This document shows positions 14,117-26,273 of a stretch of 33,377 bases of DNA, in pieces. Position 1 is the stretch's first letter; each line of letters begins with the position of its first letter. Source of the DNA: Paramagnetospirillum caucaseum (GTDB taxonomy: Bacteria > Pseudomonadota > Alphaproteobacteria > Rhodospirillales > Magnetospirillaceae); NCBI RefSeq assembly GCF_000342045.1, contig NZ_AONQ01000049.1:1-33377 (forward strand), written 5' to 3'. A program made the position numbers and the translations under genes. Below the pieces are notes generated by a model that ran no database searches, was not told the origin of the DNA, and was given only the letters and a program-made list of their open reading frames with translations.

Positions 14117-15160
14117 ATGATCGAGGTCGAGAACGTCTCCAAGCGCTTCGGCAATTTCGCCGCGCTGGACCAGGTGTCCCTGCGGGTGGCCCAGGGCAAG
14201 CTGGTGGCGCTGCTGGGGCCTTCGGGCTCGGGCAAGACTACCTTGCTGCGCATCCTGGCCGGGTTGGAGCAGCCCGACGACGGGCGCATCCGTCTGGGCG
14301 GCATCGACGCCACCGGTCTGGGAACCCGCGACCGCAAGGTGGGCTTCGTCTTCCAGCACTACGCCCTGTTCCGCCACATGACGGTGGCGGAGAACATCGC
14401 CTTCGGCCTGAAGGTCCGGAAGGGCGCCAATCGTCCCTCCAAGGCCGCCATCACCGAGAAGGTCCATACCCTGCTGGAACTGGTGCAGCTGGAAGGCCTG
14501 GCCGGGCGCTATCCCAGCCAGCTGTCGGGCGGCCAGCGCCAGCGCGTCGCCCTGGCCCGCGCCCTGGCGGTGGAGCCGCGCCTGCTGCTGCTCGACGAGC
14601 CGTTCGGCGCGCTGGACGCCCAGGTGCGCAAGGACCTGCGCCGCTGGCTGCGGCATCTGCACGACGAGATGGGCCTGACCGGCGTGTTCGTCACCCACGA
14701 CCAGGAGGAGGCGCTCGAGGTTGCCGACGAGGTGGTGGTGATGAACAAGGGCCGCATCGAGCAGATCGGCACCCCCGCCGAGATCTACGACAGCCCCGCC
14801 ACGCCCTTCGTCTACCGCTTCCTCGGCAACGTCAACGCCGTGGCCTGTCGGGTGGCCGGCGGCCAGGCCCAGGTGGGCGGCCTGCATATCGGTGAGGGAA
14901 GGGCTGACGGCCCCGGTACCGCCTTCATCCGCCCCCATGACGTGGAAGTTCTCGAACTGTCGCCCGATCTGCCCCAGGCGAGGGTCCGCCAGGTAGTGGT
15001 GCTCGGCCCCGTGGTGCGCGCCGAACTGGAACTGGCCGGCGGCGTCACCGTCGAGGCGGAATTGTCGCGCGACATCAAGGACAAGCTTGGCCTGCGGCGC
15101 GGCCTCGAGGTCTCCGTCTTCCTGCGCAAGGCGCGGGTTTTCGTCGGCGAAAACGTGTAG
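14117..15160 (+). CDS. cysA: Sulfate ABC transporter ATP-binding protein CysA
   Basis: A 347-residue ATPase subunit. Walker A GPSGSGKT (34-41), Q-loop [12 protein letters not shown] signature [19 protein letters not shown], Walker [13 protein letters not shown] and switch H in [16 protein letters not shown] are all present and intact. A C-terminal regulatory extension (about 240-347, TOBE-like, with the CysA-typical FIRPHDVEV) follows. The ATG at 14117 has GAGGAAG upstream. The protein is cytoplasmic and energises CysT/CysW. Only 37 bases separate it from the cytochrome gene, so sulfate uptake and sulfide oxidation genes may share a transcript. Confidence 0.95.
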
Positions 15161-15197
15161 AATGCGCCGAATTTCCCTCACCGAGGTGGAGGTTGCC

Positions 15198-15497
15198 ATG
15201 CGGATATTGCCGATTCTGGTCATTCTGGGTGTGGTTGTCGCCCATCCCGTCACGGCCCGGGCCGCCGAGCCCGCCCCGCTGGCGGCGGCGGTCTGCGCCA
15301 ATTGCCACGGCACGGAGGGCCGGAACGAAGGGGCGATCCCGGCCATCGCCGGCAAGCCCGCCTTCCTGATCGCCGGCAAGCTGCGCGATTTCAAGGCCGA
15401 CAAGGTGGCCAACGCCACGGTCATGCCGCGTCTGACCAAGGGCCTTACCGAGGCCGAGATCGACACGGTCGCCCAGTATTTCGCCAATCTGCGCTGA
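15198..15497 (+). CDS. fccA: Monoheme cytochrome c, probable cytochrome subunit of flavocytochrome c sulfide dehydrogenase
   Basis: A 99-residue class I cytochrome c with a cleavable signal peptide (hydrophobic 3-15, cleavage near ARA/AEP), heme motif CANCH (C33, C36, H37) and probable axial Met76 in TVMPRLTKGLTEAEI. This is the pattern of the small single-heme FccA/SoxE-type subunit that takes electrons from FccB. The ATG at 15198 has a strong GAGGTGGAGG site; an upstream ATG at 15162 is in frame but poorly spaced and would bury the signal peptide. It lies between cysA (37 bases) and the flavoprotein (14 bases) on the same strand. It is periplasmic. A generic c553-type carrier is the main alternative, but the context favours FccA. 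Confidence 0.82.
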   Translation: MRILPILVILGVVVAHPVTARAAEPAPLAAAVCANCHGTEGRNEGAIPAIAGKPAFLIAGKLRDFKADKVANATVMPRLTKGLTEAEIDTVAQYFANLR

Positions 15498-15511
15498 GGG
15501 GAGTGAACGCC

Positions 15512-16792
15512 ATGACCAACGCTTTCGATCGCCGTTCCTTCCTGGCCCTGGCCGGCGCCGCCGGCCTGTCGTCGCTGACCTCGGCCTGCGCCACCGGCCC
15601 GGCCGGCACCGGCCCCCGCGTGGTGGTGGTGGGCGGCGGCTTTGGCGGGGCGACTGCCGCCAAGTATCTGCGCCGCCTCGATCCCTCGCTGCGGGTGACC
15701 CTGGTGGAACGTTCGACCCGCTTCATCACCTGCCCGTTCAGCAATTCGGTGATCGGCGGCTTCCGCTCGCTGGAGGCCAACACCTTCGGCTACGAGGGCT
15801 TGCGCGGCCACGGGGTGGAGGTGATCCACGCCGAGGTGACCAATATCGACGCCGCCGCCCGGCTGGTGGTGCTGCAGGGCGGCGAGAAGCTGCCCTACGA
15901 CAAGCTGGTGCTGTCGCCCGGTATCGACATCAAGTGGGGCGCCCAGGGCTATTCCGAGGCCGACGCCGAACTGGCGCCGCACGCCTGGAAGGCCGGGCCG
16001 CAGACCCTGCTGCTGCGTCGCCAGCTGGAGGCCATGCCCGACGGCGGCGTGGTGGTGATGTCCATCCCCGCCAACCCCTACCGCTGCCCGCCCGGCCCCT
16101 ACGAGCGGGCCAGCCTGATCGCCCATTACCTCAAGACCAGGAAGCCGCGTTCCAAGCTGCTGCTGCTCGACGCTAAGGACAGCTTCTCCAAGCAGCCGCT
16201 GTTCATCGAGGGCTGGGACGCGCTGTACAAGGGCCTGATCGAGTGGGTGCCACTGTCCAAGGACGGCAAGGTGACCCAGGTGGACGCCAAGCGGCTGACC
16301 GTCGAGACCGAGTTCGGCACCCGCCACAAGGCCGACGTCCTGAACTACATCCCCGGGCAGACCGCCGGGGGCATCGTCATCGCCGCCGGCCTGGCCGATT
16401 CCTCGGGCTGGGTGCCGGTGGTGCCGCAGACCTTCCAGTCGGTCAAGGCGCCCGACATCTACGTGGTGGGCGACGCCACCAGCGCCGCGCCGCAGCCCAA
16501 GTCGGGATTCGCCGCCAACTCCCAGGCCAAGGTTGCCGCCGCCGCCATCGTGGCGTCGCTGCGGGGGCAGCCGGCACCCGATCCCATCTGGATGAACACC
16601 TGCTACTCGTTGCTGTCGCCCGATTACGGCATCACTGTGGCCGGGGTCTACCGGGTCATCAACGGCAAGATCGCCGACGTCCCCGGCTCGGGCGGCATCA
16701 GCCCCAAGGGGGCCTCGGCCATGTTCCGGGGGCTGGAAGCCTCCTACGCCGAGAGCTGGTACGCCAACATCACCCAGGATATCTGGGGCTGA
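15512..16792 (+). CDS. fccB: Flavocytochrome c sulfide dehydrogenase, flavoprotein subunit
   Basis: A 426-residue FAD enzyme that oxidises sulfide to sulfur/polysulfide in the periplasm and passes electrons to cytochrome c. It has a Tat signal (DRRSFLALAGAAG, residues 6-18), the FAD-binding VVVVGGGFGGATAA motif (37-50), the second FAD site IYVVGDAT, and the FCSD C-terminal domain beginning around MNTCYSLLSPDYGI. The two redox cysteines are C192 (YRCPPGPYERA) and C364 (NTCYSLL), matching the C161/C337 pair of characterised FccB. The ATG at 15512 follows GAGGGGAG. FccB is exported folded by Tat with its cytochrome partner encoded immediately upstream. The family assignment is secure. Confidence 0.93.
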   Translation: MTNAFDRRSFLALAGAAGLSSLTSACATGPAGTGPRVVVVGGGFGGATAAKYLRRLDPSLRVTLVERSTRFITCPFSNSVIGGFRSLEANTFGYEGLRGHGVEVIHAEVTNIDAAARLVVLQGGEKLPYDKLVLSPGIDIKWGAQGYSEADAELAPHAWKAGPQTLLLRRQLEAMPDGGVVVMSIPANPYRCPPGPYERASLIAHYLKTRKPRSKLLLLDAKDSFSKQPLFIEGWDALYKGLIEWVPLSKDGKVTQVDAKRLTVETEFGTRHKADVLNYIPGQTAGGIVIAAGLADSSGWVPVVPQTFQSVKAPDIYVVGDATSAAPQPKSGFAANSQAKVAAAAIVASLRGQPAPDPIWMNTCYSLLSPDYGITVAGVYRVINGKIADVPGSGGISPKGASAMFRGLEASYAESWYANITQDIWG

Positions 16793-23661: not shown

Positions 23662-23743
23662 TTGCGGCAAAACCCTGGAATCTGTGTATATAATAAAAAA
23701 CGAAGGTAAGCCGATTCTTATAAGCCGGCGCCAACCATAAGAA
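23662..23743 (+). promoter_or_regulatory. AT-rich promoter and inverted repeat upstream of the DsrE-like gene
   Basis: A TATAAT (23689-23694) within a strikingly A/T-rich run ending in AAAAAA has only a poor -35 (TTGCGG, 23662-23667, spacing 21). Downstream, TTCTTAT (23715-23721) and ATAAGAA (23737-23743) form a 7-bp inverted repeat, 13 bases before the ATG at 23757. The repeat could be an operator or leader hairpin. The rest of the 277-bp gap (23480-23756) shows no gene; on the minus strand TATTAT at 23547-23552 is a weak candidate -10 for ppiD. Confidence 0.5.
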
Positions 23744-23756
23744 CGCAGGGAAGCCA

Positions 23757-24158
23757 ATGTCGTCCAAGCCGCTGTACGTGATGCTGTGCTCAGGCGAGCA
23801 CGAGAAGATTCAGCTGGCCGCCATGGTGGCCTCGGTGGCCGCCGTCTCCGACCGGCCGGTCGAGGTGTTCGTCACCATGAACGCCGTCCTGGCCTTCGAG
23901 CGGGGCAAGAGCCCGGCCGAGCGCTATCAGGGAGGCCACTTCCACGAGATGTTCAAGACCCAGAACGTCCCCGACGCCATCGAGCTGTTCGGTCAGGGCA
24001 AGATGCTGGGCGAGATGAAGATGTGGGTGTGTTCCATGGTGCTCGATCTCAAGCACTGGGACCATGACAAGCACCTGACCGAGGATCTGTTCGACGGTCC
24101 CATGGGTCTTGCCAAGTTCCTCGCCGATTCCGAGGGCGGCGAACTCATCACCATCTGA
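23757..24158 (+). CDS. DsrE-family sulfur-carrier protein
   Basis: A 133-residue cytoplasmic protein of the DsrE/DsrF-like fold. It opens with a beta strand and LCSGEHEKIQLAAMVASVA, and has the typical conserved Cys in MKMWVCSMVLDL (C92), equivalent to the persulfide-carrying Cys of DsrE and DsrE2 proteins; C11 is a second thiol. It lacks the N-terminal membrane helices of DsrE2. DsrE proteins accept sulfur from TusA and pass it to oxidation or modification enzymes. The ATG at 23757 follows GCAGGGAAG. It is first in a DsrE-TusA-SQR-DUF1641 row, 27 bases before the TusA gene. Confidence 0.85.
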   Translation: MSSKPLYVMLCSGEHEKIQLAAMVASVAAVSDRPVEVFVTMNAVLAFERGKSPAERYQGGHFHEMFKTQNVPDAIELFGQGKMLGEMKMWVCSMVLDLKHWDHDKHLTEDLFDGPMGLAKFLADSEGGELITI

Positions 24159-24185
24159 CCTCACCTTTCTGGAAGGAAGAACATC

Positions 24186-24416
24186 ATGGCCGAACGCCAG
24201 AAGATCGACGCCCGCGGCGCCTTTTGCCCCGGGCCGCTGATGGAGCTGATCGCCGCCCTCAAGCTGGCGTCCATCGGCGACGAGGTGGATGTGTGGTCGT
24301 CCGACAAGGGATCGGCCTCGGATATTCCCGCCTGGTGCGCCAAGGTCGGCCATTCCGTGGTCGAGGCCTCCGAGCATGACGGGTACTGGAGTGTCGTGGT
24401 GCGTAAGGCCAAATAG
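24186..24416 (+). CDS. TusA-family sulfurtransferase
   Basis: A 76-residue sulfur-relay protein with the defining motif GAFCPGPLMELIAALK (C14, CPxP) and the C-terminal SDKGSASDIPAWCAKVGHSV region with a second cysteine (C51). TusA-like proteins carry a persulfide on the CPxP cysteine; in sulfur oxidisers they shuttle sulfur between DsrE-type and heterodisulfide-reductase-like proteins. The length equals the family's. The ATG at 24186 has GGAAGGA. It lies between the DsrE-like gene and the flavoprotein, supporting a role in sulfide-derived persulfide transfer rather than tRNA thiolation. Confidence 0.9.
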   Translation: MAERQKIDARGAFCPGPLMELIAALKLASIGDEVDVWSSDKGSASDIPAWCAKVGHSVVEASEHDGYWSVVVRKAK

Positions 24417-24479
24417 GCGTACAATACCCGATAGCCGACGCCAAAATGGTGCGGAAAGTGCCGCGAAGACGGCATAGGG

Positions 24480-24510
24480 GAAATATATATACATCAATAC
24501 TCTCGTAGGG
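24480..24510 (+). promoter_or_regulatory. Possible internal promoter before the SQR-like gene
   Basis: The 103-bp gap after TusA contains an AT-rich TATATATA-type run (24484-24491), unusual in this GC-rich sequence and similar to the AT-rich run upstream of the DsrE-like gene, followed by GGGAGGGAG as ribosome-binding site for the ATG at 24520. No clear -35 was seen. Confidence 0.35.
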
Positions 24511-24519
24511 AGGGAGTTC

Positions 24520-25659
24520 ATGTCGAAGACGATTCTGATCGTCGGCGGGGGGCTTGCGGGCACCATCGTCGCCAATGGCATCTGTCGCCAGATGGGAGCC
24601 GAGCTGCGCTCCGGCGCGCTCAACATCACCATGCTGGGCACCAGCGAGACCCATATGTACCAGCCGGGCCTGCTGTACATTCCGTTCGGCCGCATGCGCG
24701 AGGCGGAGCTGTTCCGCGACCAGCGCAAGGTGCTGGACAAGCGGGTCAACTTCTTCGTCGATCCGGCCAAGGCCATCGACGTGGAGAAGAACCAGGTCAC
24801 CACCGAGGCCGGCCGCACCTTCAAGTATGACTACATGGTGCTGGCCACCGGCTCGCGCATCATGCCGCAGACCATTCCCGGCATGAAGGAGGGCGGCCAC
24901 TGGTTCTACGACCTGGACGGTGCCCGCAAGCTGCGCACTGCCCTGAACGAGTTCAAGGGCGGCAAGATCGTCATCAACGTCAACGCCCCCCACAAATGCC
25001 CGGTGGCGCCGCTGGAAGTGGCGTTCATGCTGCACGACTACCTCAAGGCCAAGGGCCTGTGGGACAAGGCCGAGCTGACCTACACCTACCCCATCGGCCG
25101 GCTGCACGCGCTGGAGCCCGTCGCCCACTGGGCCAAGCCGGAATTCGAGAAGCTGGGCATCAAGTACGAGACCTTCTTCAATACCGAAAGCGTCGATCCC
25201 CAGGCCAAGACCATCAAGTCCATGGAAGGCAGCGAACTGCCCTACGACCTGCTGATCACCATTCCGCCCCACCAGGGCGCCCAGGTGATCGACGATTCCG
25301 GCCTGGGCAAGGGCGGTTGGGTGCCGACCAACACCAAGACCCTGCACCGCGAGGGCTCGGCCAACGTCTTCGTGGTGGGCGACACCACCAACATTCCCAT
25401 CTCCAAGGCCGGCTCCACCGCCCATTTCGAGGCCGACGTCACCATCGACAACCTGGTGTCGCTGTGTCAGGAGAACACCTTCGCCCGTGAATACGACGGC
25501 AAGGTGTTCTGCTTCGTCGAGACCGGGCTGGGCAGCGGCACCTATGTGTGGTTCAACTACACCACGCCGCCCAATCCCGGGCCGCCGTCGCAGATGATCC
25601 ACTGGTTCAAGCTGGCCTACAACCGGCTGTACTGGCTGTCGGCCCGCGGCCTGCTCTAG
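24520..25659 (+). CDS. Sulfide:quinone oxidoreductase-like flavoprotein
   Basis: A 379-residue FAD enzyme of the SQR/FCSD superfamily. FAD motifs: ILIVGGGLAGTIVANG (5-20), YMVLATGSR (105-113) and the second site VFVVGDTTNIPISKAG (283-298). The redox cysteines are C160 (HKCPVAPLEV) and C331 (VFCFVETG); the third cysteine of classical SQR, expected near 128-130, is replaced by aromatics (GGHWFYDLDG). The C-terminal HWFKLAYNRLYWLSARGLL is amphipathic, typical of the membrane-docking helix that reaches quinone. There is no signal peptide, so unlike FccB it faces the cytoplasm. The ATG at 24520 has a strong GGGAGGGAG. It likely oxidises sulfide or a persulfide to quinone; its substrate is not certain. 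Confidence 0.85.
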   Translation: MSKTILIVGGGLAGTIVANGICRQMGAELRSGALNITMLGTSETHMYQPGLLYIPFGRMREAELFRDQRKVLDKRVNFFVDPAKAIDVEKNQVTTEAGRTFKYDYMVLATGSRIMPQTIPGMKEGGHWFYDLDGARKLRTALNEFKGGKIVINVNAPHKCPVAPLEVAFMLHDYLKAKGLWDKAELTYTYPIGRLHALEPVAHWAKPEFEKLGIKYETFFNTESVDPQAKTIKSMEGSELPYDLLITIPPHQGAQVIDDSGLGKGGWVPTNTKTLHREGSANVFVVGDTTNIPISKAGSTAHFEADVTIDNLVSLCQENTFAREYDGKVFCFVETGLGSGTYVWFNYTTPPNPGPPSQMIHWFKLAYNRLYWLSARGLL

Positions 25660-25669
25660 GAGGGGCGCC

Positions 25670-26215
25670 ATGAACGAGATCCCCAAGATCGAGGTCGATT
25701 CCTCCGTCAGCGAAATGGCCCGTCTGGCCCAGGGCGTGCGCGACGCCCTGTCCGATTCCATGGTCGAGCGCCTGACCAGCACCGCCGGCAACGCGCTGGA
25801 GGTGGTGGACAAGCTCAACGAGCCCGACGTCAAGGACGGGCTGATCGCCCTGCTCGACGCCGTCGGCACCCTGCAGCGCACCGGCGCGCTGCAGACGGTG
25901 ATCGACGCCCTGTTCATGCTGCACGCCATGCGTTCGGCGGCCACCGATTCCATGGTGGACCGCGCCTTCTCCTTCATCGAGCACATGGCCAACAACTTAG
26001 GGACCGAGGACCTCGCCACCCTGGCTCACGAGGCCAAGGGCGCCATGGAGGACGCCATCGATTCCTGCAACATCCCGGGCGGCGGCGGGGGCCTGTTCGG
26101 CACCATGCGCATGCTGTCCCAGAAGGAGACGCAGGAAGCGCTGCGCTTCATGCTGTCCTTCTCATGCTCGCTGAAAAAGCGCGCCATCTACCTGGCCAAG
26201 AGCCCGCAGGTCTGA
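25670..26215 (+). CDS. DUF1641 family protein
   Basis: A 181-residue mostly helical soluble protein. The C-terminal region GGGGGLFGTMRMLSQKETQEA followed by LRFMLSFS is the DUF1641 signature (GG-Lf-x-l-r-x-x-x-dpevqralrfll). Earlier helices (~15-130) hold LLDAVGTLQRTGALQTVIDA-type amphipathic segments. Two cysteines, C133 and C166, flank the signature. It starts ten bases after the flavoprotein stop with AGGAGGGG, so the two are tightly coupled; DUF1641 genes commonly sit beside SQR-like genes in sulfur-metabolising bacteria and archaea. Its role is unknown; a scaffold or partner for the flavoprotein is my inference. Confidence 0.82.
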   Translation: MNEIPKIEVDSSVSEMARLAQGVRDALSDSMVERLTSTAGNALEVVDKLNEPDVKDGLIALLDAVGTLQRTGALQTVIDALFMLHAMRSAATDSMVDRAFSFIEHMANNLGTEDLATLAHEAKGAMEDAIDSCNIPGGGGGLFGTMRMLSQKETQEALRFMLSFSCSLKKRAIYLAKSPQV

Positions 26216-26239: not shown

Positions 26240-26273
26240 GGGCGGGGCCGGAAACGGCTCCGCCCGGTTTTTT
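26240..26273 (+). terminator. Rho-independent terminator of the DsrE-TusA-SQR-DUF1641 unit
   Basis: An 11-bp stem (26240-26250 with 26255-26265, one G-T wobble) closed by a GAAA tetraloop, followed after two bases by TTTTTT (26268-26273). It lies 25 bases after the DUF1641 stop and closes the unit before tpiA. Confidence 0.85.

Follow-up and report, generated by a model that had tools for sequence, protein, structure and literature searches.

A conserved DsrE-TusA-SQR-DUF1641 gene module of Paramagnetospirillum caucaseum as a probable cytoplasmic entry unit for sulfide oxidation

Paramagnetospirillum caucaseum DNA of 33,377 nucleotides (the window, which is contig NZ_AONQ01000049.1, or C49, of the 4.86 Mb source genome) carries a module of four genes for a DsrE-family protein, a TusA-family protein, a sulfide:quinone oxidoreductase (SQR) and a DUF1641 protein. 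This module probably oxidises sulfide in the cytoplasm and serves as an entry unit to a pathway of sulfane-sulfur oxidation, with persulfide relayed by the carriers and DUF1641 coupling the SQR to quinone. Our analysis computed its gene order, conserved cysteines, SQR fold, the sequence kinship of DUF1641 and the co-occurrence with the reverse-Dsr (rDsr) or sHdr pathway. A first-pass annotation, made from the sequence alone, had described the same four open reading frames (ORFs) on the plus strand with the same families, and its overall reading is supported in part.

The flavoprotein is of the pyridine-nucleotide-disulfide type. Its cysteines C160 and C331 are invariant in 37/37 aligned SQR proteins, and both align with the cysteines of human SQOR. 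For this and the following comparisons, 45 DUF1641, 37 SQR, 22 DsrE and 20 TusA proteins were aligned, hand-chosen from 63 loci and including the window's own. The structural model (predicted local distance difference test score, pLDDT, 90) has the SQR fold across the whole chain, and its best structural matches are human SQOR and other SQRs. NF049943, the NCBIfam selenoprotein subtype, is the best-scoring family, at 342 bits and thus below its cut-off of 525; the redox positions of our protein hold Cys, and it falls outside this subtype. Judged from sequence and model, the protein is a predicted type III SQR, and the earlier description as an SQR-like flavoprotein is confirmed by both redox cysteines and the fold. 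A class III of SQRs has already been named, and its enzyme in cable bacteria and other Desulfobulbales is reported to carry a canonical cysteine pair as well (residues 159 and 339) and to be predicted on the cytoplasmic face (PMC13047784). It differs in its extra cysteines, and the passages on it describe no TusA-DsrE-DUF1641 operon (PMC13047784).

Both sulfur carriers keep an invariant cysteine. TusA passes the Pfam cut-off (PF01206, 75.8 bits against 28.6), and its CPGP motif, already noticed in the first reading, is present in 20/20 aligned proteins. The persulfide carrier was originally proposed as DsrE-type with C92. This residue is indeed invariant (22/22 aligned proteins) and probably corresponds to the DsrE active-site position, but the window protein misses the Pfam cut-offs of the family (PF13686, DrsE_2, 19.1 against 25 bits; PF02635, DsrE, 17.2 against 22.7). 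PF13686 is matched at E <= 0.1 by 22/22 DsrE relatives. The closest PDB sequence is 2qs7 (E 1.3e-4), which has been called DsrE2B of Sulfolobus solfataricus (PMC4175335). A second TusA gene is found just upstream of the module in L038, L039, L040, L042, L045, L055 and L056. In L039 it is accompanied by what we take to be a DsrE2-like gene, a member of a cluster seen in 7 loci. The source genome has two further TusA genes outside the module. At L105:5034-6501 another tusA of this genome adjoins a divergent gene that we take to be YeeE-like, as presumably in thiosulfate uptake pairs.

The DUF1641 protein passes the PF07849 cut-off (25.8 bits against 21), and the family is matched at E <= 0.01 by 21/45 aligned relatives. 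Searched against the PDB, the single protein finds YjlC and an 'NDH-2 membrane coupling protein', both at E 0.003. The profile of 45 sequences finds the same two at 7.2e-6 and 1e-5 and ForE1 third at 8.3e-4. The hit that follows, at 0.01, is no longer a protein of this kind. With this kinship to YjlC and ForE1, the earlier statement that the role of DUF1641 is unknown is now too pessimistic, and the protein may well couple the SQR of the module to quinone. ForE1 is described as the menaquinone-linking subunit of the ForCE formate dehydrogenase of B. subtilis, in which the catalytic subunit differs from ours in being an unrelated Mo/W enzyme (PMC8808070). Another parallel is YjlD-YjlC of Bacillus subtilis (PDB 9pxk and 9snk, with 9a63 as an integrative model), where, as here, a flavoprotein of the same superfamily fold has a DUF1641-type partner. 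The NDH-2 coupling role of YjlC is taken from PDB titles and molecule names, and the donor there is NADH, not sulfide. To our knowledge, no sulfur carriers are associated with YjlD-YjlC.

Neighbours of other DUF1641 genes are also on record. In Sulfobacillus thermotolerans a DUF1641 gene lies beside an SQR gene, as here, and the two proteins are reported as more abundant on sulfide concentrate, 2.2-fold and 5.8-fold (PMC7409299). That DUF1641 protein differs in its length of 335 amino acids (aa) and its gene position upstream of the SQR gene. The authors assign it no function, and the passages on the pair mention neither TusA nor DsrE (PMC7409299). In addition, DUF1641 adjoins a flavoprotein by locus number in Ignicoccus (PMC3149612) and heads the list of a hydrogenase operon in Parageobacillus (PMC12976888). 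Among our loci, the DUF1641 proteins of L016, L028, L057 and L058 are 234-242 aa long, and in the alignment that of L016 has its N-terminal DxMVER...NALEVVDRLND segment as an extra copy.

The order DsrE-TusA-SQR-DUF1641 is complete in 57 of the 63 loci. Since these were found by SQR similarity, the fraction measures conservation of the neighbourhood and not frequency. Five of the six exceptions have an incomplete SQR to begin with: L051, L058, L063 and L064 are truncated at contig ends, and L065 holds an SQR fragment only. The sixth is L027, in which no DsrE is recognisable. In the nearest loci of the named collection the SQR is 92-97% identical (labels Phaeospirillum, Paramagnetospirillum, Magnetospirillum and once Terasakiella). 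A draw independent of the SQR finds it in 27/120 genomes of the order, and the 26 carriers besides the source genome all show the complete order, split over two contigs in one case. Class-wide, 6/387 genomes carry the SQR, the source genome included, so the module is rare and is rejected as a general alphaproteobacterial trait. All four genes are present in 4/5 further carriers. Alphaproteobacteria share the four-gene order with loci that bear a gammaproteobacteria label and with a Magnetococcales metagenome-assembled genome, and the trpE-ppiD and tpiA flanks are present in a minority of loci only. An order that recurs across groups, mostly without the flanks of the window, is thus more than chance. 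Co-occurrence had been proposed as the check on the module idea, and the order proves to be fixed far beyond the genus.

A relative of the SQR also occurs in 231 plasmid records, of which we examined 11, 10 haloarchaeal and 1 from Chloroflexota. DUF1641 follows the SQR homologue in all 10 haloarchaeal records, and TusA is detected just upstream in 9/10. A Halobellus limi plasmid (L190:2227-6107) encodes TusA-flavoprotein-DUF1641 and, after these, another flavoprotein and another gene with a DUF1641 annotation, the visible part of which has no Pfam match. In a class-wide carrier (G191), an OsmC-like gene (L181:3005-3547, minus strand; 72.8 bits, model cut-off 95) stands at the expected dsrE position before TusA-SQR-DUF1641.

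A candidate sulfur acceptor is encoded elsewhere in the source genome. Contig C31 has DsrA, DsrB, DsrF/TusC, DsrC, DsrK and DsrO above the cut-offs and DsrM and DsrP below them; DsrE and DsrH were not individually identified in this cluster. A 651-aa flavoprotein on the same contig (best match NF009410) is taken by us to be DsrL. Together, DsrF, DsrC and the DsrL-like protein point to the oxidative (reverse-Dsr) pathway. The earlier remark that there is no Dsr or Hdr-like acceptor thus holds for the window and is misleading for the genome. An sHdr acceptor was rejected for the source genome, where no sHdrA is found at E <= 1e-40 and the only two CCG matches lie within one 265-aa frame. The neighbourhood of this frame is presumably one of lactate oxidation.

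Co-occurrence extends this link to other carriers. In the order sample, DsrA is present in 26/27 carriers vs 21/93 non-carriers (Fisher test, p 1.7e-12), and by genus in 15/16 carrier vs 15/46 non-carrier genera (p 2e-5). In the sole DsrA-negative carrier, G034, there is an sHdr-like cluster (L130, from CCG matches and gene layout), and in G004 a dsr cluster, read from translations of L108, shares a contig with the module, at a distance of about 6 kb. Among 50 genomes reached via the 63 loci, DsrA is present in 38, and a strong sHdrA in 8 of the 12 that lack DsrA; 13 loci (L003-L008, L012, L013, L022, L051, L058, L060 and L063) are omitted from this DsrA count. The sHdrA screen covered 33 genomes, namely G000, G034, the 12 DsrA-negative ones and 19 of the 38 DsrA-positive ones, of which 5/19 also have a strong sHdrA. 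The sHdr genes are in the same locus as the module in L040 and L052. Class-wide, DsrA or sHdrA is found in 5/6 carriers vs 11/381 non-carriers (p 3.6e-7).

Several observations weigh against the module being such an entry unit. The SQR is carried without detected DsrA or strong sHdrA by G137 (a 36% match only), G155, G162 and G163, and without detected DsrA or sHdrA by G191, whose genome is rated 95% complete; two of these five are single-cell genomes. The module is absent from 21/47 DsrA genomes of the order sample, and L027 and G191 (L181) have no recognisable DsrE. The Fisher tests ignore phylogeny, scoring in the class searches was confined to the best few candidates of each genome, and there is overlap between the genome samples (G131 of the 50-genome set and G004 of the order sample, for example, give identical coordinates). 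The DUF1641 model is all-helical with a predicted template modelling score (pTM) of 0.35 and gives no Foldseek match, so its fold is unconfirmed. Furthermore, the SQR still has one helix at its C-terminus, where it falls short of classical SQRs by only some 10 to 30 residues, and a Chloroflexota relative (L071) has TusA-SQR with an equally short SQR (380 aa) and DUF1641 undetected within the 13 kb examined. A short C-terminus therefore does not require DUF1641, and a strict argument from loss of the SQR's own anchor is weakened by both the retained helix and L071.

The carriers without DsrA or strong sHdrA would suit a role in detoxification or sensing, in which the SQR removes endogenous sulfide, TusA and DsrE serve tRNA thiolation or molybdenum cofactor synthesis, and the rDsr link reflects sulfidic habitats. 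The same can be said of the haloarchaeal TusA-SQR-DUF1641 genes near TauE-type exporters (L185 and L186) and of the haloarchaeal modules near an MBL-fold gene, possibly a persulfide dioxygenase (L069 and L189). With a strong rDsr or sHdr association in three overlapping samples and two other TusA genes outside the module in the source genome, we regard this role as unlikely. Another possibility is that DUF1641 assists the SQR as a chaperone or as a scaffold for sulfur transfer, its resemblance to YjlC and ForE1 being that of a general helical partner protein. The similarity is weak (best E 7e-6 for the profile and 0.003 for the single protein), the model has a low pTM, and ForE1 is said in its own report to perhaps influence also the integrity of ForC1 (PMC8808070). 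However, the three top PDB matches are all solved DUF1641-type partners of quinone-linked dehydrogenases, the NDH-2 role being read from molecule names, and a mere chaperone or scaffold appears improbable. Type III SQRs are little studied, and the module SQR has about 19-24% identity over the fold to biochemically studied ones. A flavoprotein that runs in reverse and reduces persulfidated TusA/DsrE with quinol or NADH, or one that acts as a TusA-persulfide:quinone oxidoreductase and never meets free sulfide, is nevertheless very doubtful, since both SQR redox cysteines are conserved, the best fold matches are SQRs and a relative of DUF1641 is reported to serve a quinone-reducing dehydrogenase (PMC8808070).

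For the sulfide-oxidising entry unit that we favour, the following course is proposed. The type III SQR would take the electrons of sulfide on the cytoplasmic side through C160/C331 and flavin adenine dinucleotide, leaving persulfide. We infer a contact between the SQR and DUF1641, by which DUF1641 would dock the enzyme to the membrane and help quinone to receive the electrons. The persulfide would pass directly to TusA (C14) and DsrE (C92), in this direction, and would not be released as polysulfide. The sulfur would then go on to rDsr in the source genome and to sHdr in other carriers. In haloarchaea the acceptor may be a dioxygenase, as the MBL-fold gene of L069 and L189 is near further TusA and DsrE genes. 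A relay from the flavoprotein to TusA/DsrE, which the first-pass annotation had put forward, fits the co-occurrence with rDsr or sHdr.

The module lies between trpE-ppiD (minus strand) and tpiA (plus strand), as first described, and the flanking genes also bear on its origin. In 13/30 tpiA loci of the order sample, ppiD adjoins tpiA divergently with no module between them. These include G090 of the same genus and G076, G107 and G015 of the same family, all module-free, and also G052, in which the module is found on a different contig. Nine of the 30 loci belong to carriers in the window's family; in all of them (9/9) ppiD lies outside the module, and tpiA shares its contig at less than 3 kb from the SQR gene. 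The remaining 8/30 loci showed no ppiD and no module. The adjacency of ppiD and tpiA therefore looks ancestral, which favours the insertion suggested earlier; the module looks to have entered the window's family by insertion, with or without later loss from some of its genomes.

The features of the module are collected in Table 1. The promoter region of its own that had been proposed is visible as AT-richness with a TATAAT, and a full sigma-70 site was not found upstream of the DsrE gene. The strong terminator is present as a GC-rich hairpin with a T-run; terminator-like sites in the whole region number 2 against 2.1 expected from shuffles, so there is no excess. The SQR and DUF1641 genes are 10 bp apart in the window (median 12 bp across 61 loci), and the spacing between TusA and SQR is 23 to 241 bp (median 74, 59 loci).

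Table 1. Features of the four-gene module and its borders in the window
Feature	Position	Strand	Basis
AT-rich leader, probable promoter region, TATAAT at about 23689	23675..23756	+	sequence
DsrE-family sulfur carrier, 133 aa, invariant C92	23757..24158	+	ORF, Pfam, PDB sequence search, alignment
TusA-family sulfur carrier, 76 aa, invariant C14-P-G-P	24186..24416	+	Pfam, alignment
AT-richer gap of 103 bp preceding the SQR gene	24417..24519	+	sequence
Predicted type III sulfide:quinone oxidoreductase, 379 aa, redox cysteines C160 and C331	24520..25659	+	family search, alignment, model
DUF1641 protein, 181 aa, proposed subunit that couples the SQR to membrane and quinone	25670..26215	+	Pfam, profile search, all-helical low-pTM model
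Intrinsic terminator, stem-loop followed by T-run	26240..26265	+	11-bp stem, 10 G-C

A second sulfide oxidase, of the FccAB type, is encoded in the window at 15087-16792 (plus strand), so the module is not its only one. The flavocytochrome c flavoprotein (15512-16789) matches FCSD_central at 174.9 bits and FCSD-flav_bind at 100.7 bits; its N-terminus is Tat-signal-like, and both SQR-type cysteines align. The gene sits behind a small CxxCH cytochrome-like ORF, and a CysA-like sulfate/thiosulfate ABC transporter gene lies upstream. The ppiD reading frame (minus strand) is broken at about 21824, near its 3' end, where relatives align in one frame before and in another after; this is either a sequencing error or a real defect.

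Several parts of this picture have been published. In Metallosphaera cuprina, the genes Mcup_1722-1724 (Liu et al. 2014, PMC4175335) combine, as here, a potential SQR with TusA and with a DsrE homologue that has the active-site cysteine, and the TusA-SQR-DsrE4 linkage is thus known for Metallosphaera. The order differs, with DsrE4 downstream of the SQR there and DsrE first here, and DUF1641 does not occur in the text of that paper (PMC4175335). Class III SQR, DUF1641 as a quinone-linking subunit (ForCE) and DUF1641 next to an SQR (Sulfobacillus) are likewise already known. In the literature searched we found no report of the conserved four-gene bacterial unit, of a coupling-subunit reading of its DUF1641 or of its nesting in rDsr/sHdr genomes.

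A wider proposal is plausible but tentative. DUF1641 might be a general quinone adaptor, a single small helical subunit serving unrelated dehydrogenases of the cytosol (NDH-2, formate dehydrogenase, some hydrogenases and type III SQR), and a complex of SQR, DUF1641, TusA and DsrE might channel persulfide to rDsr or sHdr without free polysulfide. If true, this would provide a missing cytoplasmic entry step of the rDsr/sHdr pathways. The intracellular delivery of sulfide sulfur to rDsr/sHdr and the route of soluble flavoproteins to the quinone pool are two open points, and a conserved operon in which an SQR is joined by sulfur carriers and a subunit of the coupling type opens both to direct test. 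The operon also suggests a role for a family that is still named 'unknown function' in Pfam.

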